Of a stretch of DNA of 64,000 bases, positions 8,763 through 33,930 are shown piece after piece. The position numbers and the translations under genes were made by a program. Each line of letters opens with the position of its first letter. Within the stretch, counting starts at the first letter, position 1. This DNA is from Haemophilus haemolyticus (GTDB taxonomy: Bacteria > Pseudomonadota > Gammaproteobacteria > Enterobacterales > Pasteurellaceae), in NCBI RefSeq assembly GCF_003352385.1, contig NZ_CP031243.1, forward strand, positions 1,802,501 to 1,866,500, given 5' to 3'. The notes under the pieces were generated by a model, which was not told where the DNA came from, ran no database searches, and saw nothing but the letters and a program-made list of their open reading frames with translations.

Positions 8763-10246
<1,484 letters not shown>

Positions 10247-10398: not shown

Positions 10399-11457
10399 TT
10401 AAGCCGATTTTTTGGTAAAGCCAATATAGGCGCAGAATATAAATCCAAGCACTAAAGCGTATGGCGTAAATTCACCAATGCCAGAGCCTGAAGCTGCAAG
10501 GCTTAAACGATGCGCCGCGGCTGCACCTAAAAGCATACCAAGCACAAAAATAGCGGAGTCATTATCACCTTCACCAAGATGAACCAAATGTTTGCCAGGG
10601 CAACCACCGCCAAGGGCGAAGCATAATCCGCAAAGTGCCATGCCGAGGAAGTTCCAAAGATATTGATTATGTGCACCAGGTTGTTGTTCAAACCCTAAAT
10701 GGAATTGACCAAGTAAAGCATTGGTAATGGCAGCAAATACCACTAAAGCGATGACACCATTCAATAATGAAGAATCACGGAATAGAATGAAATTGCGGAA
10801 TGCACCGATTGAGCAGAAACGTGATTTTTGCATTAATACGCCTATGATTAGCCCGCCTGCTAAAGATAATGCCCAAAATGCATGTTGTGTGCCAGGGCCT
10901 TTTTGTGAAAAATAAAGCGGTAAACCTTCGCCAAAACTAAATTGTGTGATAACGCCAATAAGTAATAAACCCGCAATAATGACAGAAATCCAGCCTGTAA
11001 CGGGGGCTTGTTCTTTGGCTTTGCCGAGCGAAAATCCTCGATTGCTAAAGAAAATTCCACCTAATACACCGACAAATAAACCGACAATACCGGCAATCGC
11101 AGATAAATCGCCGCCCCCTAGACGCAAATATGCACGCCATGGACAACCTAAGAAAGTTAGAGCACCAATCATGGCAAATACGCCTAAAATTAAGCGAATG
11201 AATGGTGATGAACCACCACGAGCACGAAATTCTTTCGCAAATAACGCACTCACTAACGCACCGAAAATTAATCCGATGAGTTCGGGGCGGATGTATTGAA
11301 GTGGAGCGGCTTGATGTAAGCCAATGGAGCCAGCCGTATCGCGTAAGAAACAGGCTGCGCAGAATCCCATGTTGCCTGGATTTCCGCTATAAGTAAGTAG
11401 TGGAGCGATGATACCAAGTGCAGCACCTGCAACCACAGGCCATTTTGATCCTTTCAT
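10399..11457 (-). CDS. yedE: YedE/YeeE-family membrane protein, putative selenium transporter
   Basis: 352 residues with about ten transmembrane segments. Two YeeE/YedE cysteine-containing repeats are visible: SRFCSIGAFRNF in the middle and CFALGGGCPGKHLVHLGEGDND near the C-terminus, with GFCAACFLRDTAGS and FLGCPWRAYLRL in the first half. This set matches the YedE/FdhT subfamily linked to selenium metabolism. H. influenzae makes selenocysteine formate dehydrogenase, which fits. No SirA-like yedF partner lies beside it. Transport of a sulfur or selenium species is inferred from the family. Confidence 0.82.
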   Translation of the reverse strand: MKGSKWPVVAGAALGIIAPLLTYSGNPGNMGFCAACFLRDTAGSIGLHQAAPLQYIRPELIGLIFGALVSALFAKEFRARGGSSPFIRLILGVFAMIGALTFLGCPWRAYLRLGGGDLSAIAGIVGLFVGVLGGIFFSNRGFSLGKAKEQAPVTGWISVIIAGLLLIGVITQFSFGEGLPLYFSQKGPGTQHAFWALSLAGGLIIGVLMQKSRFCSIGAFRNFILFRDSSLLNGVIALVVFAAITNALLGQFHLGFEQQPGAHNQYLWNFLGMALCGLCFALGGGCPGKHLVHLGEGDNDSAIFVLGMLLGAAAAHRLSLAASGSGIGEFTPYALVLGFIFCAYIGFTKKSA

Positions 11458-25191: not shown

Positions 25192-25221
25192 GCGGTGAAA
25201 AATCTATATAATTTTTACCGC
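25192..25221 (+). terminator. Terminator after yhaM
   Basis: GCGGTGAAAAAT and ATTTTTACCGC pair with one bulged base across a CTATATA loop. It lies at the left boundary of the Ter island. The arms resemble a decayed uptake signal pair. Confidence 0.5.
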
Positions 25222-25242: not shown

Positions 25243-25608
25243 TTAAAGTTTATTTTGAAAAGAACTAATAAAAGCAATTAATGCTGATTTTTGCTGTTCC
25301 GATAGTCCAATAATCATCTTCAACAAAACTTCATCTAACATTGTCATTTTTTCATTATCATCCACACCGTAACGCAACCATTCTGGTTTAACTGATAACC
25401 ACTTAGATAATGTTTCAATTTTATCCATTGATGGAATAGCCAAACCATTAAGCCATTTATGTACGGCTTGTTGAGTAACAGACTCATTTGGGTGTTGTAA
25501 ATTAAATTTAGTTGCTATTTCACTTGTCTTCAAATTCTGCATAGCCATTGCTGAAAGAGCTAGTTTTAAACGTGCACTAAATTTTTCTTTTTCACTTAAT
25601 ATTTTCAT
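25243..25608 (-). CDS. XRE-type helix-turn-helix regulator of the Ter island
   Basis: 121 residues from the start at 25608 (MKILSEKEKFSARL); the ORF can be extended to 25653 but the added residues are hydrophobic and lie in the divergent promoter. The N-terminal half is a phage-repressor-like HTH: LKTSEIATKFNL, then VTQQAVHKWLNGLAIPSMDK, where QQAVHKWLNG is the recognition helix. The C-terminal half is a short helical tail with no protease domain. Divergent from terC with two palindromes between, so probably an autoregulating repressor. No clear ribosome site. Confidence 0.8.
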   Translation of the reverse strand: MKILSEKEKFSARLKLALSAMAMQNLKTSEIATKFNLQHPNESVTQQAVHKWLNGLAIPSMDKIETLSKWLSVKPEWLRYGVDDNEKMTMLDEVLLKMIIGLSEQQKSALIAFISSFQNKL

Positions 25609-25646
25609 AATGAAAATAATTATGACGAAATCCAAAAAGATCTTGT

Positions 25647-25685
25647 AAACCATTTAGGTTTTTATATAAACTGTGTTGGTTTATA
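25647..25685. promoter_or_regulatory. Two adjacent palindromes, candidate operators of the Ter operon
   Basis: AAACC-ATTTA-GGTTT (25647-25661) and TATAAAC-N7-GTTTATA (25665-25685) are both perfect inverted repeats in the 100-base gap between the divergent HTH gene and terC. They share the half-site RTAAACC/GGTTTAT and overlap the AT-rich promoter region. This suggests cooperative binding of the adjacent HTH protein. Confidence 0.55.
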
Positions 25686-25708
25686 GATTTTTGTTTTAGG
25701 TTTCATCT

Positions 25709-26710
25709 ATGCATCATTTTGGATTTCCTTTCGAGGTTTTGGTTGTTTTCTTCTGTGCAATTTTATTCTCAATTTATATTGACTTAGTTTCTCACCGACA
25801 TAGTAAAGGAATTACCGTAAAAAATGCCGCGCTTTGGTCAATTTTTTGGATTTCATTGGCATTATCGTTCTACTTTTATCTTTATTTCCGCTTTGAGCCG
25901 GAATGGGCAGATCTCTATCTTGCCGGTTATGTACTTGAAAAAAGTTTATCCATTGATAACTTGATGGTATTTGTTGCGATCTTTACATCTTTTGGTATCA
26001 AAGATCACCTTCAACACCGTATTCTTTATTGGGGAATCTTAGGCGCATTGATTTTCCGAGCTATTTTCGTTGTGATTGGAACAGGATTATTTGCCGCCAG
26101 TCCTTGGATTGGATTTATCTTTGCTGCATTTGTACTTTGGAGTGGTTGGAAAATGTTACGAGGCGGAGATGATAATGAAGAAGAAATCGAAGACTATACT
26201 CATCACTGGAGTGTTCGTTTGGTAGGGAAAATAATGCCTGTTTTCCCAAAACTAATGCAAGAAAAATTCTTTGTAAAAAATAACGAATTAAATGCAGATC
26301 AAATAGTTTCCGTTACTCGTCAAGGTTTTCGTTACGCAACGCCTGCATTTTTATGTTTAATGACTATTGAAACATCCGATGTAGCATTTGCCTTTGACTC
26401 AGTACCTGCTGTTATTGCTGTTACTCAAGAACCATTACTCGTTTATGCTGCAATGATTTTCGCGATTCTAGGATTACGTAGTCTCTATTTTATTCTTGCT
26501 GCACTCACAAAATATCTTGTTCACCTCGAAAAAGCTGTCATTGCCTTATTGTTCTTTATTGGTATCAAAATGGGAATTCAATCTTGGAATCATGCGGTAT
26601 TTGATACAGGTATTCATATTCCAGCAAACGTAAGTCTTTATATTGTATTAGGTGTTTTGCTAATAGGAGTTATTGCTTCATTTATTTTCCCTGACAAAGA
26701 ACAGGAATAA
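25709..26710 (+). CDS. terC: TerC/Alx-family integral membrane protein
   Basis: 333 residues, about nine transmembrane segments. Family motifs are present: LAGYVLEKSLSIDNLMVF near residue 70 and CLMTIETSDVAFAFDSVPAV near residue 220, whose membrane-embedded acidic residues are conserved in TerC and Alx and linked to metal-ion (Mn2+) export. First gene of the operon, with AGG eight bases ahead of the ATG. In Ter systems TerC is the membrane anchor that works with TerD-type proteins. No yybP-ykoY riboswitch was visible in the short leader. Confidence 0.9.
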   Translation: MHHFGFPFEVLVVFFCAILFSIYIDLVSHRHSKGITVKNAALWSIFWISLALSFYFYLYFRFEPEWADLYLAGYVLEKSLSIDNLMVFVAIFTSFGIKDHLQHRILYWGILGALIFRAIFVVIGTGLFAASPWIGFIFAAFVLWSGWKMLRGGDDNEEEIEDYTHHWSVRLVGKIMPVFPKLMQEKFFVKNNELNADQIVSVTRQGFRYATPAFLCLMTIETSDVAFAFDSVPAVIAVTQEPLLVYAAMIFAILGLRSLYFILAALTKYLVHLEKAVIALLFFIGIKMGIQSWNHAVFDTGIHIPANVSLYIVLGVLLIGVIASFIFPDKEQE

Positions 26711-26715
26711 TCTAT

Positions 26716-27084
26716 ATGGTTACTAAAAAGTTAATACTACTTTCAATCGGTTTAATTTCCATTAATACAATGGCTAATCAATATTATGTTGCCCCACCAA
26801 CATCTTCTACGAGGGGGCATGTTCCGGTTATTAGTGATGAACAAATGGAGAAATGTGTTGAAATTTATAACCAATCAAAATGGTTAGGTGATTCACTTCA
26901 AAATACTTATGTTGATCAATATTCGAGTGCATCAGTAAATGCTTATAACCAAAAAATAGCTCAACATTCACAAATGATAAATTGGTTTAATCAAAATTGC
27001 GCAGGAAAACAATCACGTTCTGCTTGTGAAGCTGCAATGGAACTAAATCGTAAAAATGGGATACCAACACAAAATTGCTATTAG
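26716..27084 (+). CDS. Small secreted four-cysteine protein of the Ter operon, unknown function
   Basis: 122 residues starting 5 bases after terC. The N-terminus (MVTKKLILLSIGLISINTMA, then NQYY) looks like a Sec signal peptide cleaved after Ala20. The ~100-residue mature part has four cysteines (EKCVEIY, FNQNCAGK, RSACEAAM, QNCY at the C-terminus), enough for two disulfides, and is Asn/Gln-rich with helical stretches. I recognise no family. Being between terC and the cytoplasmic ter genes suggests a periplasmic partner of TerC. Confidence 0.8.
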   Translation: MVTKKLILLSIGLISINTMANQYYVAPPTSSTRGHVPVISDEQMEKCVEIYNQSKWLGDSLQNTYVDQYSSASVNAYNQKIAQHSQMINWFNQNCAGKQSRSACEAAMELNRKNGIPTQNCY

Positions 27085-27093
27085 GAGAAATTT

Positions 27094-27732
27094 ATGCGTC
27101 GTTTACCTGTTTATTTATTAGTCGATACTTCTGGCTCAATGATGGGCGAGGCTATTGAATCTGTGCGTAATGGTTTACAAATGCTAGTTTCTGCATTGCG
27201 TCAAGATCCTTACGCATTAGAAACGGCTTATCTATCTGTGATTACTTTTGATAGCAAAGCCAAACAAGTTACACCACTAACGGAGCTAATGAGCTTTCAG
27301 CTTCCAATTATTGAAGCATCAGGCTTAACATCAATGGGCGAAGCGTTAAGTTTACTTACAGATTGTATCAATCGCGAGGTACAAAAAGGATCTGCAGAAA
27401 TAAAAGGTGACTGGAAACCAGTTGTATTTTTACTTTCAGATGGTGTACCAACTGACGATTTGCAGAAAGGAATTAATGCATTAAAAACAGTGAAAACAGG
27501 AACTTTTGTGGCTTGTGCGGCAGGCGCTGGAGCAGATACCAATGTATTAAAACAAATTACAGAAAGTGTAGTGTCATTAGATACCGCAGATGCCAACTCT
27601 ATTAAAGCCTTCTTTAAATGGGTATCTGCCTCTATTTCTGTATCAAGTCAAAAAGTAGATCTCAACAAAAAAGATGTAAGCGGATTAGGTGAACTTCCTC
27701 CACCACCAGCAGAATTAAATATTGTTTTATAA
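27094..27732 (+). CDS. TerY-type von Willebrand factor A protein 1
   Basis: 212 residues, almost entirely one vWA domain. The metal-ion-dependent adhesion site is intact: DTSGSM near residue 10, T in GLTSMGEAL near 77, and SDGVPTDD near 118. Cytoplasmic, no signal peptide. The C-terminus ends LPPPPAELNIVL, a tail matched in the next gene. Preceded by TAGGAGAAATTTATG, nearly the same as the third paralogue. Expected to act as a metal-dependent scaffold for the phosphatase and kinase encoded downstream. Confidence 0.88.
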   Translation: MRRLPVYLLVDTSGSMMGEAIESVRNGLQMLVSALRQDPYALETAYLSVITFDSKAKQVTPLTELMSFQLPIIEASGLTSMGEALSLLTDCINREVQKGSAEIKGDWKPVVFLLSDGVPTDDLQKGINALKTVKTGTFVACAAGAGADTNVLKQITESVVSLDTADANSIKAFFKWVSASISVSSQKVDLNKKDVSGLGELPPPPAELNIVL

Positions 27733-27750
27733 TTTAGGTGGTTAGTAGAT

Positions 27751-28386
27751 ATGTCTAGAAGACTACTCACTTATATTTGTATTGATACATCAGGCTCGAT
27801 GAAAGGCGAACCAATTGAAGCAGTGAATGTTGGTTTGCAATCACTGCTTTCCGCCTTACGACAAAATCCTTATGCGTTAGAAAGTGTGTATCTCTCCATT
27901 TCAACATTTGATACTCAAATCAAAAATGTGCTGCCATTAACCGCACTTGAAGATGTGGTATTGCCGACCATTAGTTGCCCTGATAGTGGGGCAACCTTTC
28001 TTGGCAAAATGTTAGAAGAAATCTCACAAGCGGTTAAAAAAGATCGTATTCTTGCTACATCTGAACAAAAAGGCGATTGGCGACCGATTTTAATTTTACT
28101 CACAGACGGAAAACCTTCCGATACATTAGCTTATGAACTCGCCATTCCACAAATTAAAGCCTTAAATTTTGGCAACATTGTCGCTTGTGCAGCAGGTCCA
28201 AAAGCGGATCCAAACATCTTAAAAAAATTAACGGATACCGTTGTATCACTCGATACAATGGATGCAAATAGCTTTGCACAGTTCTTCCAATGGGTTTCTG
28301 CTTCGGTTGCTCAAACCAGTGTCAGTGTGGGCTCAACAAGCAATGCTCTCCCGCCTCCACCTGATGAAATCACTCTTGTATTTTAG
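27751..28386 (+). CDS. TerY-type von Willebrand factor A protein 2
   Basis: 211 residues, paralogous to the first vWA gene over its whole length. MIDAS elements: DTSGSMKG near residue 10, the conserved threonine in GATFLGKML, and LTDGKPSD near 119. The ending LPPPPDEITLVF mirrors the first paralogue's tail. Contains the island's only perfect uptake signal (about 27940). No separate promoter seen in the 18-base gap; part of the same operon. Confidence 0.87.
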   Translation: MSRRLLTYICIDTSGSMKGEPIEAVNVGLQSLLSALRQNPYALESVYLSISTFDTQIKNVLPLTALEDVVLPTISCPDSGATFLGKMLEEISQAVKKDRILATSEQKGDWRPILILLTDGKPSDTLAYELAIPQIKALNFGNIVACAAGPKADPNILKKLTDTVVSLDTMDANSFAQFFQWVSASVAQTSVSVGSTSNALPPPPDEITLVF

Positions 28387-28394
28387 GAGAAATT

Positions 28395-29432
28395 ATGCGT
28401 CGTTTACCTGTTTATCTTGTTGTTGATATCTCCGAAAGTATGGCTGGCGAAAATCTTCGTCAAATGCAAGAAGGCATTAGCCGCTTGGTTAATCAACTTC
28501 GCCGTGATCCTTACGCGTTAGAATCTGTTTATCTTTCTGTGATCGCATTTGCTGGGGCGGCTGGTACGCTTGCACCATTAACGGAATTAATGAGTTTTTA
28601 CCCGCCTCGTTTGCCGATTGGTTCTGGAACATCTATTGGTGCAGCACTAAATCATTTAATGGATTCTTTAGAAAAAGATATTGTGCGTAGTACGCCAGAG
28701 AAAAAAGGCGATTGGAAACCATTGATTTACATTATGTCAGACGGTTCGCCAACAGATGATCCTGCACAAGCTATTTCTCGCTGGAAACACCATTTTCAAA
28801 ATAAAGCGAAGCTAATCAATATTGGCATTGGTAAATTTGCCAACCTTGATACATTAAGTGAAATTAGTGATTTAACCTATCAACTAGATGATGAAGATAT
28901 AGAAAAAGTTTACCGTGCTTTATGTGAATCTGTTGCGGATTCCATTCTAAGTCAAAGTCGCTCGCTGGGTGTGGAATTGCCTATATCACTGAATAAAGAA
29001 ATTTTAGAAAGCGGTGCGATTTCTTTGATTAAAGAAAAAGAGCAAGTGGTCGCTTTAGATGAAAATTATGCAATCATCGTGGGTAAATGTAGCAAGGTGA
29101 AATTGCCTTATTTAATGAAATATGAACGGCTTGAAAACAGTCCGCTTGATAATTCGATTTTTCAATATGTTGGTGTTTACCCAGCTGAAAAAGATTACGC
29201 AGATTGGTCTGATCATCGGCCAAATCACAGCCAAATTTCTACTTCACAATTATGGGGTAGTGGCGGTTGTCCCCATTGTGGAGCTGCTTTTGGTTTGTGT
29301 ATGTGCAACTGTGGGCAAATTTTCTGTGCTAACGGCGAAAAAGAAGTCGTCTGCCCTGGTTGTAATGAAACCTTGTATTTTAATGATGAAGCAGACGGTG
29401 CTGATTTTGATATTACGCGTGCAAGGGGCTAG
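28395..29432 (+). CDS. TerY-type vWA protein 3 with C-terminal zinc ribbon
   Basis: 345 residues. The vWA domain (1-185) begins MRRLPVYLVVDISESM, identical at its start to paralogue 1; DxSxS is kept as DISES, and MSDGSPTDD supplies another MIDAS aspartate. A linker domain follows. A cysteine-rich C-terminal module (about 291-331: GCPHCGAAF, CMCNCGQIFC, VCPGCNETL) has eight or more cysteines for probably two zinc ions. It lacks the proline tail of the other two. This is the form closest to classical TerY. It abuts the phosphatase gene by 2 bases. Confidence 0.9.
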   Translation: MRRLPVYLVVDISESMAGENLRQMQEGISRLVNQLRRDPYALESVYLSVIAFAGAAGTLAPLTELMSFYPPRLPIGSGTSIGAALNHLMDSLEKDIVRSTPEKKGDWKPLIYIMSDGSPTDDPAQAISRWKHHFQNKAKLINIGIGKFANLDTLSEISDLTYQLDDEDIEKVYRALCESVADSILSQSRSLGVELPISLNKEILESGAISLIKEKEQVVALDENYAIIVGKCSKVKLPYLMKYERLENSPLDNSIFQYVGVYPAEKDYADWSDHRPNHSQISTSQLWGSGGCPHCGAAFGLCMCNCGQIFCANGEKEVVCPGCNETLYFNDEADGADFDITRARG

Positions 29433-29434
29433 GG

Positions 29435-30985
29435 ATGAATGCAACCGAACAATTAGAAAAAATAAAATCTTGGTTAAATCAGGCTGATGAAAAATATCTT
29501 GATGCCTTTGCCAGTCAAAATCAGACATTAATATCCCATATTTGTGAAATATGGCAACGTTTTCAGGAAGCTAAAAATATAACATCATTGGAAAATAATA
29601 TGTTGACCATTCAACCAACAGAAACAACACCAGTATATAAAAAAGAGCTCATCATTACATTGCCAAATGCAAAACAAGATGAACCTTATTTTTACCAAAA
29701 AACCAATGATTTCCCTACAATTCAATCTCTAAAAGTCGAAGAGGACCTTGGATTAGCTTGGAATGTAGAAGCCCAAGCATTAGATGGTGTACCGATAAAG
29801 AGCGGTGAATTTTTACTGACTTTTCAACTTACTGACGGTAATACAGCACACTCAACCCTTTTTATCAATCCTAATCCGAAATATTTATGGAAGAACATTC
29901 CTTCCGATAAAAATAGCCGTTTTTGGAAACCAGATAGTGCAAGTAGCCAGATTTCCACAGACTTAGGACAATTAATCGCAGCACGTATGCGCGGACGTAC
30001 TCACGCAATGAAAGGAACGTGCTGCGATGATGATTTTACTATCGGCTATCACGAGAAATCAAAATTTCATTTCATTGCTGTTGCTGACGGTGCAGGAAGT
30101 GCAGAATTTTCTCGCCAAGGCTCAAAACTAGCTGTAGAGGCCGCAAAAGATAAATTTTTTGAGTTACTGAATATTGAAGGTAAGGACTACCAAAAACTTT
30201 CCCAAAAAAACGAACAAGAACTCGCTTATATTACCAAAGTGATGTTTAAAGAAGCGGTTCAAGCCGCTTATCTTGCCCAAGAAACAGCAGCAAAAGATTA
30301 TGTTATTGAACAGAAATCTCTTTCTTGCACATTACTGCTTGCGTTTACATTACCTTTAATCGATGGGAAATGGTTCACTGCTTGTTATTGGGTGGGAGAT
30401 GGTGCAGCTGCAATCTTTGATACCGCTATACAAAAAATCAAATTATTGGGTGAGGTGGACTCAGGACAATATTCAGGTGAAACCCAATTTTTAACCTTAG
30501 CTGAAGCCAATGCGGAAAAAATCACCGCACGCATTTATACAGATATTCGTGATTATCCTCCAATCCTGATATTAATGACAGATGGCGTTTCCGATCCTAA
30601 ATTTCATAGTGATGTACAGCTTAACACCTTTGAGGCTTGGCAAACATTTTGGCAAGAATTACGTGAACCATTACAAAAAGAGCAACCAGAAAAAGCCTTA
30701 GAGGAATGGCTAGATTTCTTCTCAAAAGGAGAGCACGATGATCGCACTTTAGCGATATTTATTCCGCAGTCAGAATGGCAGGGAATGACTTATACATCAA
30801 TGAGCAATGAAATCTTGAAGGAAGAGTCAAGAATAGTGAATGAGATAGTTCTACAAGCGACTGAAAATAATCAAGAATTTGCTAATGAAAAAGTCAGAAC
30901 TATCAACATTACTCAGAACAATGAAACAAAAACAATCACGCTCCAGAAAGCAAGTGACATACCACTTCAAAAAGGAACTGAATAA
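29435..30985 (+). CDS. PP2C-family protein phosphatase of the Ter island
   Basis: 516 residues. The PP2C domain occupies about 185-450: VADGAGSAEFSRQGS near 217 (metal-binding Asp-Gly), SCTLLLAF, VGDGAAAIFD, MTDGVSDPKF near 381 and GEHDDRTLAIF near 434, so the metal ligands look intact. The N-terminal ~170 residues carry a beta-rich stretch (LDGVPIKSGEFLLTFQLTDG) resembling putative Ig (He_PIG-like) folds. The C-terminal ~60 residues are hydrophilic. The stop overlaps the kinase start (TAATG), so the pair is translationally coupled. Ser/Thr dephosphorylation opposing the kinase is inferred. Confidence 0.88.
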   Translation: MNATEQLEKIKSWLNQADEKYLDAFASQNQTLISHICEIWQRFQEAKNITSLENNMLTIQPTETTPVYKKELIITLPNAKQDEPYFYQKTNDFPTIQSLKVEEDLGLAWNVEAQALDGVPIKSGEFLLTFQLTDGNTAHSTLFINPNPKYLWKNIPSDKNSRFWKPDSASSQISTDLGQLIAARMRGRTHAMKGTCCDDDFTIGYHEKSKFHFIAVADGAGSAEFSRQGSKLAVEAAKDKFFELLNIEGKDYQKLSQKNEQELAYITKVMFKEAVQAAYLAQETAAKDYVIEQKSLSCTLLLAFTLPLIDGKWFTACYWVGDGAAAIFDTAIQKIKLLGEVDSGQYSGETQFLTLAEANAEKITARIYTDIRDYPPILILMTDGVSDPKFHSDVQLNTFEAWQTFWQELREPLQKEQPEKALEEWLDFFSKGEHDDRTLAIFIPQSEWQGMTYTSMSNEILKEESRIVNEIVLQATENNQEFANEKVRTINITQNNETKTITLQKASDIPLQKGTE

Positions 30986-32484
30986 TGGGTAAAGTTATCA
31001 CGCTCACTGCAACAAATGGTGAAACTATTCAATTTGTTGATGAAATCAAAGCCCAAGGCGGAATGAAAGATGTGATGTTCTCACCTAATAAAGATTATGT
31101 TGTTGCATTCTTCCGTGAACCTGCTGATCTTGCCACGAAAGAGCGGTTAGAAATGATAACAGGAACTTACCGCGAAAAGATCTTTAATCAAGAAGGTGGC
31201 GAATATCTTAAAAAATTATTCTGTTGGCCTACCGCTGTAGTGGAATATCAAGGCAAGCTCGGTGTGGTTAGCCCTTTTTATCGTGATTGCTTTTTCTTCC
31301 AATATGGCAGCCGTAATAACGATATGTTAGGCATTAAAGGCAAAGATAAAGATGGTAAATGGTTCGCCAGTGCATCTAATCGCAATAAGTTTCTTGACTC
31401 GCGAGAGTTAGGTGATTGGATGTTGCATCTGAAAGTCTGCTTGATGCTGGCTCGTGCCGTTCGCCGTATGCATATGGCCGGATTAAGTCATAGTGACTTA
31501 GGTTACAAAAACTGCTTAATCGATCCAACAACTGGTCAAGCAAGTTTAATTGATATTGACGGCTTAGTTGTGCCGGGGAAACATCCACCAACAGTGGTGG
31601 GAACACCTGATTTTATTGCACCTGAAGTAGTGGCAACTCAACATTTAGACAAAAGTGATCCGAAACGTAAATTACCAAGTCGAACCACCGATCTACACGC
31701 ATTAGCTGTTTTGATTTATATGTATTTACTTTATCGCCATCCACTTCGGGGAGATAAAGTCTTTGATATGAATGATAGCCAGCGTGATGAAGAATTAGGA
31801 ATGGGAGAAAAGGCGTTATTCATTGAACACCCAACTGATCATTCTAATCGTATAAAAGTAGGGAATGTTAAACCTAGCGAACAGCCTTGGAAAGACACAC
31901 AAAAAATGCCTTATACCATTACTGGCCCTTATTTAAGCGAATTATTTAAACGAGCTTTTATTGACGGCTTGCATAATCCTATTGCTCGCCCGACAGCAGA
32001 TGAATGGGAACAGGCATTAGTCAAAACAGTAGATTTGCTTCAGCCTTGTCAAGGCGCTAATTGTGAACAGAAATGGTATGCTTTTGATAATTCTAAATCG
32101 CCTAAATGTCCGTTTTGTGGCACAGCACATCAAGGTAAATTGCCCGTGTTAAATTTATATTCTTCTGCACCAAATGGTAGTTATCGTCCTGATAATCACA
32201 GAATTATGGTCTACAGCGGGCAATCACTTTTCAAATGGCATTCAGATAATCGTATTTTCCCGAATGAGAAATTAAAAGTGGAGGATGCAAAACGCATTGG
32301 ATATTTCGTGTTATATCAAGGAAATTGGTGGCTTGTGAACGAAAATCTGACTGATATGGTAGATGTCAATACTAAACAATCTATTCCTATTGGTGGAAAA
32401 GTGAAACTCGAGGAAGGCGCCAAAATTCTTTTGAAAAAAGGCGAAGGCGGACGGCTTATCGTTGTTCAAATGACTGGTGCATAA
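30985..32484 (+). CDS. Ser/Thr protein-kinase-like protein with zinc ribbon (Ter island)
   Basis: 499 residues. The kinase core (about 20-330) has the catalytic loop as SHSDLGYKNCL near 168 (HSD in place of HRD, catalytic Asp and Asn kept), DIDGL in place of DFG near 190, and TPDFIAPEV as the APE motif. The glycine-rich loop is poorly conserved. A four-cysteine zinc ribbon follows (about 354-381: CQGANCEQ, CPFCG), then a ~100-residue beta-rich C-terminal domain of FHA-like pattern. Matches the kinase of TerY-phosphatase-kinase triads. Activity is likely but unproven. Confidence 0.85.
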   Translation: MGKVITLTATNGETIQFVDEIKAQGGMKDVMFSPNKDYVVAFFREPADLATKERLEMITGTYREKIFNQEGGEYLKKLFCWPTAVVEYQGKLGVVSPFYRDCFFFQYGSRNNDMLGIKGKDKDGKWFASASNRNKFLDSRELGDWMLHLKVCLMLARAVRRMHMAGLSHSDLGYKNCLIDPTTGQASLIDIDGLVVPGKHPPTVVGTPDFIAPEVVATQHLDKSDPKRKLPSRTTDLHALAVLIYMYLLYRHPLRGDKVFDMNDSQRDEELGMGEKALFIEHPTDHSNRIKVGNVKPSEQPWKDTQKMPYTITGPYLSELFKRAFIDGLHNPIARPTADEWEQALVKTVDLLQPCQGANCEQKWYAFDNSKSPKCPFCGTAHQGKLPVLNLYSSAPNGSYRPDNHRIMVYSGQSLFKWHSDNRIFPNEKLKVEDAKRIGYFVLYQGNWWLVNENLTDMVDVNTKQSIPIGGKVKLEEGAKILLKKGEGGRLIVVQMTGA

Positions 32485-32520
32485 GATTTATTAACCTAAT
32501 AATAACTGGAGAATTATAAT

Positions 32521-33099
32521 ATGGCAATTTCATTAACCAAAGGTCAAAACGTTTCATTAAGTAAAACCGATCCGAGCTTAAAAAATGTATTGGTTGGTTT
32601 AGGGTGGGATGCTCGTTCAACTGATGGGCAAGACTTTGACTTAGACGCAAGTGTATTTATGGCAACAGAAAATAGTAAAGTGCCTTCTGATAGACATTTT
32701 ATTTTCTATAATCAATTAGTTTCACCTTGTGGTGGTGTAGAGCATACTGGCGATAACCTCACCGGTGATGGAGATGGTGATGATGAAAGCGTGATAGTTC
32801 GCTTAGACAAAGTAGAAAGTAATATCAAATCACTTTTTATTACTGTAACTATTCACGATGCAGAAGCTCGTCGTCAAAATTTTGGTCAAGTCAGCAATGC
32901 ATTCGTACGTATTGTTAATAATGATACTAGTGATGAAATTGTTCGTTTTGATCTTTCTGAAGATTACAGCACCGAAACAGCAATGGTGTTTGGTGAAATT
33001 TATCGTCATAACGGTGAATGGAAATTTCGTGCAATTGGTCAAGGATATACAGGGGGATTATATTCACTTTGTCAACAATATGGTGTAAATGTTGGTTAA
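32521..33099 (+). CDS. terD: TerD/TerE-family calcium-binding stress protein
   Basis: 192 residues, the standard TerD length. Starts [15 protein letters not shown]; acidic loops [18 protein letters not shown] (about 28-45) and [12 protein letters not shown] (about 79-90) are the two Ca2+-binding sites of the TerD fold. Cytoplasmic beta-sandwich protein thought to associate with TerC at the membrane. A 36-base gap with GGAG precedes it, the largest in the operon, possibly allowing separate translation control. It could equally be called TerE. Confidence 0.92.
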
Positions 33100-33111
33100 T
33101 TGGAGTGAAAA

Positions 33112-33759
33112 ATGGTTTCATTAAATAAAATTACTTTAGAAAAAAAAGGTGATTCGCATAAAATTGATTTATCGAAATCAACTGATCAGCAAATTACTAT
33201 TAACTTAAATTGGACTCAACAAAAACCCTCTGGTTTCTTCAGTAGCTTATTTGGTTCAAATAAAGAGATTGATTTAGATCTTGGGTGTTACTGGGAGTTA
33301 CAAGACGGAACAGCTTCACTTATTGACGGTTTGCAATTTTCCAAAGGCCGTGGCGGGTCAAGAGAACGTCTAACACGCCAAGGATGTTATAGCCAAGCAC
33401 CTTGGGTATGGCATTGTGGAGATGATCGGAATGGCAGCTCAGCCGAAGGTGAAAATATTTTAGTCAACCCAAAAGGTATCAGAGATCTACGTCGTTTGGT
33501 TATCTATTGTTTCATTTATGAGGGGGCTGCTAAATGGGCCGAGTCTGATGCCGTAGTAACCGTTAAAGTGCCTAACCAGCCTGAAATCGTTGTTGAAATG
33601 GGGAAACAAACTGATCCTCGCACATTCTGTGCGATTGCAAGCATTGACTTTGATGATTCTCAGATGTCAGTTCGTAAAGACATTAACTTCTTTAATGGAC
33701 ATGCAGATTGTAGCCAATATTACGGCTGGGGATTCGAGTTTTCCGCGGGAGCAAAATAA
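33112..33759 (+). CDS. TerA/TerD-superfamily stress protein
   Basis: 215 residues. Begins MVSLNKITLEKKGDSHKI, like TerD-superfamily members, with acidic EIDLDLGCYWELQDG as the first metal loop and GDDRNGSSAEGE as the second. It lacks the full calcium motif of TerD and fits best with TerA-type members, which are however usually longer. Last gene of the operon, 12 bases after terD, closed by a strong hairpin. Confidence 0.82.
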   Translation: MVSLNKITLEKKGDSHKIDLSKSTDQQITINLNWTQQKPSGFFSSLFGSNKEIDLDLGCYWELQDGTASLIDGLQFSKGRGGSRERLTRQGCYSQAPWVWHCGDDRNGSSAEGENILVNPKGIRDLRRLVIYCFIYEGAAKWAESDAVVTVKVPNQPEIVVEMGKQTDPRTFCAIASIDFDDSQMSVRKDINFFNGHADCSQYYGWGFEFSAGAK

Positions 33760-33836
33760 AATACCTTACTTACCAAGCTACATACAATAAAAGGTAATTT
33801 TCTTAAATGTAGGATATGCAATATAATCTTATATAC

Positions 33837-33873
33837 ATACCTGTTTATTATATAAATTAATAAACAGGTATTT
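33837..33873 (+). terminator. Terminator closing the Ter operon
   Basis: ATACCTGTTTATTA (33837-33850) and TAATAAACAGGTAT (33858-33871) form a perfect 14-bp stem with a 7-base loop, then TTTCTT. The stem is AT-rich. It could also serve hugZ from the opposite strand. The rest of the 171-base gap holds nothing I recognise. Confidence 0.7.
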
Positions 33874-33930
33874 CTTAACTTTATGTATGAAAATTATTCC
33901 ATATTATTTAATGAGAAAATACTAGTTATT

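Follow-up and report, generated by a model that had tools for sequence, protein, structure and literature searches.

A reduced, acquired Ter island with a TerY-P triad in Haemophilus haemolyticus

The purpose of Ter systems is debated, because tellurium is scarce in nature, and a locus of Haemophilus haemolyticus raises the question again for a reduced, nine-gene set: what would such a set do, and how did it come to lie where it does? The locus falls within the stretch of 64 000 nucleotides analysed here (the window; positions 1802501–1866500 of the source genome, a single contig of 1.97 Mb), between genes that we take to be yhaM and hugZ; these names, like polA and hbpA, are presumptive, in part carried over from a preliminary description of the sequence. 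That description had noted nine tightly spaced genes running from terC to a terA-like gene, and the open reading frame list agrees, with nine plus-strand genes at 25709–33759 separated by 5, 9, 18, 8 and 2 bases, a single 1-base overlap, and 36 (the largest spacer) and 12 bases. The features of the island are as follows:

25243–25653, minus strand: HTH gene (Cro/CI-like), presumed regulator (Pfam HTH_3, E 9.7e-4, below the cut-off)
25654–25708: divergent gap of 55 bp, possible operator (TATAAAC-N7-GTTTATA)
25709–26710, plus strand: terC, TerC/Alx-type membrane protein (Pfam TerC, E 1.9e-43)
26716–27084, plus strand: sec122, ORF of 122 aa with a signal-peptide-like start (by eye) and cysteines at 47, 95, 104 and 121
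27094–27732, plus strand: vWA protein 1 (Pfam VWA, E 1.4e-12; complete MIDAS)
27751–28386, plus strand: vWA protein 2 (Pfam VWA, E 1.2e-8; complete MIDAS)
28395–29432, plus strand: TerY, vWA plus TerY_C metal-binding domain (VWA, E 1.9e-12; TerY_C, E 8e-39; complete MIDAS)
29435–30985, plus strand: PP2C phosphatase with a non-catalytic front half (PP2C_2, E 1.4e-35, residues 186–427)
30985–32484, plus strand: protein kinase with zinc ribbon and C-terminal beta domain (Pkinase, E 1e-10)
32521–33099, plus strand: terD (Pfam TerD, E 3.2e-86)
33112–33759, plus strand: short terA (terA2), C-terminal half only (alignment to plasmid TerA)
33837–33871: closing hairpin between the operon and the convergent hugZ (folding energy against shuffles)

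The assignments made earlier (TerC, three vWA proteins, PP2C, a kinase with zinc ribbon, TerD and a TerA-like protein) are in accord with Pfam, plasmid alignments and motifs. TerC scores over the cut-off for the NCBIfam family R_switched_Alx (356 bits), TerD has a solved relative (2kxt, E 8.1e-88), and the TerA-like protein, which falls short of the Pfam TerD cut-off (E 0.049), aligns to residues 186–385 of a plasmid TerA of 385 aa (E 4e-44); this short form is common. An Enterobacter plasmid cluster (terY-C/Y/X/Y/W plus terZABCDEF) encodes homologues of the vWA and TerY_C proteins as well as TerC, TerD, the C-terminal half of TerA and the kinase at 49, 68, 37 and 62 % identity, respectively, whereas the island is without TerB, TerZ, TerE, TerF, TerW and the biosynthetic genes, has TerA halved and has sec122 added. 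With the terZABCDEF operon the island has TerC and TerD in common, but full-length TerA, TerB and the TerD paralogues are missing. None of the ten island proteins was TerB, TerZ, TerE or TerF, or belonged to the ter-linked biosynthetic module (ATP-grasp, phosphoribosyltransferase etc.), and the whole genome gave a single TerD match. A second TerC-family gene is present elsewhere in the genome (G000:C1:1669352-1669918).

The TerY-P triad was reportedly set out by Anantharaman in 2012. By Pfam and motifs the island encodes all three of its parts, namely the TerY-like vWA protein, the PP2C-like phosphatase and the kinase that carries a zinc ribbon C-terminally, as the preliminary description had proposed. 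The MIDAS residues of the vWA proteins are invariant in nine of nine aligned rows and the PP2C metal-site motifs in ten of ten; the front half of PP2C is strongly diverged, but the catalytic half is not. In the kinase the zinc-ribbon cysteines are C355, C360, C375 and C378, while the usual beta-3 lysine is missing (F42 in 21 of 21 rows), so kinase activity is only assumed. Its last 116 residues gave no sequence match in the PDB and no family common to two of 12 rows, and the result lists of a fold search were filled by the kinase domain. The passages of PMC11090510 on this triad describe it in the same terms, with links to tellurite resistance and restriction systems, and there too the vWA, PP2C and zinc-ribbon kinase genes are adjacent; here they stand inside terC-sec122-terD-terA2. 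Histophilus somni 129Pt, also of the Pasteurellaceae, has a kinase–phosphatase pair followed by genes named terDEZ (HS_0631–0635; PMC3339403), but the passage describing them, unlike the island, gives no TerC, vWA protein or sec122. Three plasmid comparators carry a TerD-like gene between two short vWA genes; the island has none there, as is the case in 13 of 25 loci of other phyla.

The presumed adjacency of yhaM and hugZ in strain Rd had suggested that the island is probably an insertion, and related species bear this out. When the gene set and its neighbours were sought in nine other Haemophilus species (one genome per species), TerY was found in none of the nine. The hugZ product located the flank in eight (G009 gave no match), and in seven of these eight readable species the yhaM–hugZ space is 129–132 bp; alignment to the short sites places the beginning of the extra DNA at 25203 and its end at 33906–33930. 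The eighth site (G007) has 3.4 kb between hugZ and yhaM instead of the island, including a gene for a DNA methyltransferase (N6_N4_Mtase, E 2.3e-70) and, next to it, an ORF that matches nothing in Pfam (L057, 3471–5349), and the site thus accepts restriction-modification-like genes. The flanks of another Haemophilus species (G003, L058) are about 95 % identical to those of the window, and by G+C (0.34–0.41 per 1 kb block in the island) the flanks are not distinguishable from it. At three of the seven short sites (L060, L061 and L062) only both ends of yhaM match, the pattern that an internal deletion would leave, and no match to the cupin gene was obtained. All ten reading frames of the island are intact in the ORF list, and against copies in two other genera the ten whole genes have dN/dS values of 0.00–0.23, the highest value in any part being 0.47. 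The island is a real, acquired and intact Ter system of known type; new here are the reduced gene set in its present form and the sec122 companion.

A survey of 140 Pasteurellaceae genomes, that of the window among them, found TerY_C in seven genomes of five genera and TerD in ten. The order terC-sec122-vWA-vWA-TerY_C-PP2C-kinase-terD-terA2 is the same in all seven TerY_C genomes, and the remaining three TerD loci consist of terC-sec122-terD-terA2; since the five-gene triad is absent from these three of ten loci, it behaves as a cassette at a fixed place. The core-only loci, at 57–76 % identity to the window, represent a diverged lineage and not recent deletions. In L068, L070 and L071, 0.7 kb separates sec122 from the first vWA gene; this interval encodes a DUF4328 membrane protein in L068 (4936–5652), and an ORF similar to it lies at the same place in L071 (13098–13781). 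Among named genomes, 25 TerY loci were found, mostly in Bacteroidota, Desulfobacterota and Verrucomicrobiota MAGs, and neither terC nor sec122 was present at any of these 25 over the available stretches, some of them short. In a plasmid collection, 2319 records match TerY.

In a genome of another genus (G073, L067) the island follows polA-cupin-yhaM, the same site as in the window, and in one of a third genus (G129, L066) it follows polA-cupin. Compared with G073, the island is mostly 88–100 % identical per 250-base block, dipping to 72–84 % in the PP2C front and 82–83 % in terA2; outside the island, identity is 69–80 % in polA and 79–94 % across cupin-yhaM. Compared with G129, the island is 85.5 % identical overall and polA 74 %, and the spread of the island blocks (62–98 %) indicates that this transfer was older or mosaic. 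At synonymous sites the distance to G073 leaps from 0.03 (sec122 and vWA protein 2) to 0.76 (terA2), which is mosaic exchange. The sequence AAGTGCGGT, which we take to be the Haemophilus uptake word, has 42 occurrences in the window, of which one lies in the island, against an expectation of 6.4 there based on the remainder of the window (Poisson P 0.012), a scarcity that would be consistent with imported DNA moved by recombination. Exchange of these islands among Pasteurellaceae genera by recombination is likely.

The preliminary description had counted sec122 without naming it, and the gene is a conserved part of the island. It lies beside terC in all ten TerD genomes and occurs in one of the 130 Pasteurellaceae genomes without TerD (Fisher P 1.9e-14 for co-occurrence with TerD among the 140, uncorrected for kinship). 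That lone homologue (G058; L086, 866–1285) is flanked by an HTH gene and a RhuM-family gene, and the 2.8 kb read around it contain no gene of the island; for two homologues from elsewhere in the order (G1173 and G1018), the 14.3 and 9 kb read were likewise free of island genes, and the plasmid collection gave no match to sec122. Further homologues belong to Campylobacter, Sulfurimonas, Shewanella and Marinomonas. Being ter-linked in ten of ten genomes, yet also found apart from ter, sec122 is a tight ter companion in Pasteurellaceae but not a universal one. On an Aromatoleum plasmid (L064, 19416–19838), an unannotated, exported-looking frame of 141 codons, distantly like sec122, lies 1.8 kb past terC. 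The sec122 protein matches no Pfam or NCBIfam family over the cut-off, and its structure model, three helices with a core pLDDT >90, had no solved relative in our search. A pattern search found C47 in all 120 homologues listed out of 126. Of those listed, 116 have the searched motif, with C104 and C121 both present in 92, both absent in 24 (which end a few residues early) and a single one in none; the four outside the motif set comprise two with both cysteines, one with neither and one fragment. This joint presence or absence, in counts uncorrected for kinship, points to a C104–C121 disulfide.

The divergent HTH gene noted previously does lie next to terC, and has counterparts at the same place in L067 (97 % identical) and L066 (84 %). 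The 7 bp arms of the inverted repeat in the divergent gap were reached by eight of 1000 shuffles, both in the window and in L067; in L066 the gap has 5 bp arms only, reached by 501 of 1000. Core-only loci L072–L074 also begin with a divergent HTH-like gene, that of L074 being unrelated to the window's, and in L068 and L071 there is no HTH-like gene next to terC. The 55 bp gap is probably where the HTH protein acts to control the operon, with the HTH and operator assignments themselves weak. The closing hairpin was rightly called strong (−16 kcal/mol, z −6.49, with none of 200 shuffles as good), and a simple terminator scan had no entry for it.

Our current working hypothesis, to which we attach a moderate degree of confidence, is that the island is a laterally shared Ter/TerY-P stress operon specifying a metal-dependent, phosphorylation-gated envelope-stress system. 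We favour such a switch because TerC proteins of Bacillus metalate exported enzymes and co-purify with Sec components (PMC10550928, in part), and because TerY-P has been proposed, in a section of PMC11090510, to be a metal-sensing phosphorylation switch. TerC in the inner membrane would move or hand over Mn/Zn to the periplasm, where an exported, disulfide-held sec122 might act as its partner, client or sensor, while TerD, the half-TerA and the vWA proteins would form an assembly at the cytoplasmic side, activated under metal or envelope stress through its phosphorylation state, which the kinase and PP2C would set. The island would spread by DNA uptake followed by homologous recombination. As to TerC itself, and counting against this hypothesis, excerpts of two reports disagree, metal and oxidative stress resistance being independent of TerC in PMC9933665, contrary to PMC12054061.

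The main rival, which we consider doubtful, is an anti-phage defence island in which the triad senses infection and phosphorylation leads to a TerC/TerD-dependent membrane change or growth arrest. An anti-phage TerY-P module has reportedly been described by Gao in 2020. According to passages of PMC7699616 and PMC11090510, such a module, an OB-fold relative of TerY-P, acts against T7-like phages, and it too has vWA, PP2C and kinase genes. Its kinase ends in an OB-fold; that of the island has a zinc ribbon and a beta domain of unassigned fold. A defence role would also suit the methyltransferase gene and ORF at the same yhaM–hugZ site in G007, the patchy spread (seven of 140 Pasteurellaceae genomes) and the diverged PP2C front half, and a Klebsiella terC mutant showed larger plaques with eight phages, with plating efficiency changed for one of the eight (PMC12054061, in part). 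However, none of the PADLOC models matched the vWA or PP2C proteins (E up to 0.1), and for the kinase all matches were to kinases belonging to other systems (best E 7.3e-6); by Pfam, the ten proteins contain neither a nuclease nor any other known effector domain, and they likewise include no Type II/III-A CoCoNuT partner (McrB-like GTPase, helicase or HEPN nuclease). Since dN/dS nowhere exceeds 0.47, exchange of alleles would explain the PP2C divergence just as well as an arms race would.

A plain tellurite or metal-resistance determinant, in which the benefit comes from TerC and TerD, with the triad doing no more than tuning expression or assembly, would account for the three triad-less loci, and expression of terZ–F makes E. 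coli tellurite-resistant (PMC8115787, in part). The same part of that paper holds terBCDE to be necessary for tellurite resistance, but TerB, TerE, TerZ and TerF are missing here, and several papers, in the portions concerned, state that tellurium is scarce in nature; we regard this explanation as improbable. That the island is a passenger or decaying, without present function, would fit its absence from all nine other Haemophilus species searched but is very improbable in the face of ten intact frames, low dN/dS and retained motifs.

Within the favoured envelope-stress reading, a bolder and distinctly tentative proposal is that the Pasteurellaceae Ter system has an extracytoplasmic arm: sec122, as an exported, disulfide-bonded three-helix partner or client of TerC, would couple the periplasmic metal or envelope state to the cytoplasmic vWA/kinase/phosphatase switch, and the fast-changing PP2C front half would read the inducing signal. 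If so, the distant sec122-like ORF near the Aromatoleum terC would imply that the arm predates the Pasteurellaceae, and sec122, if a TerC partner, would offer a first periplasmic handle on a Ter system. The island provides a reduced nine-gene set in a family that includes transformable laboratory strains and in which some natural loci lack the triad, so that the role of the core (TerC-sec122-TerD-TerA) can be separated from that of the kinase–phosphatase cassette.

Two further kinds of gene were seen by eye. YeeE/YedE-like transporter genes adjoin the right side of the island in L067 (13111–14154) and L066 (6216–7256), and another lies in the window away from the island (10399–11457), as does an ORF resembling the end of a trimeric autotransporter (9008–10246) for which a TTG start is listed.
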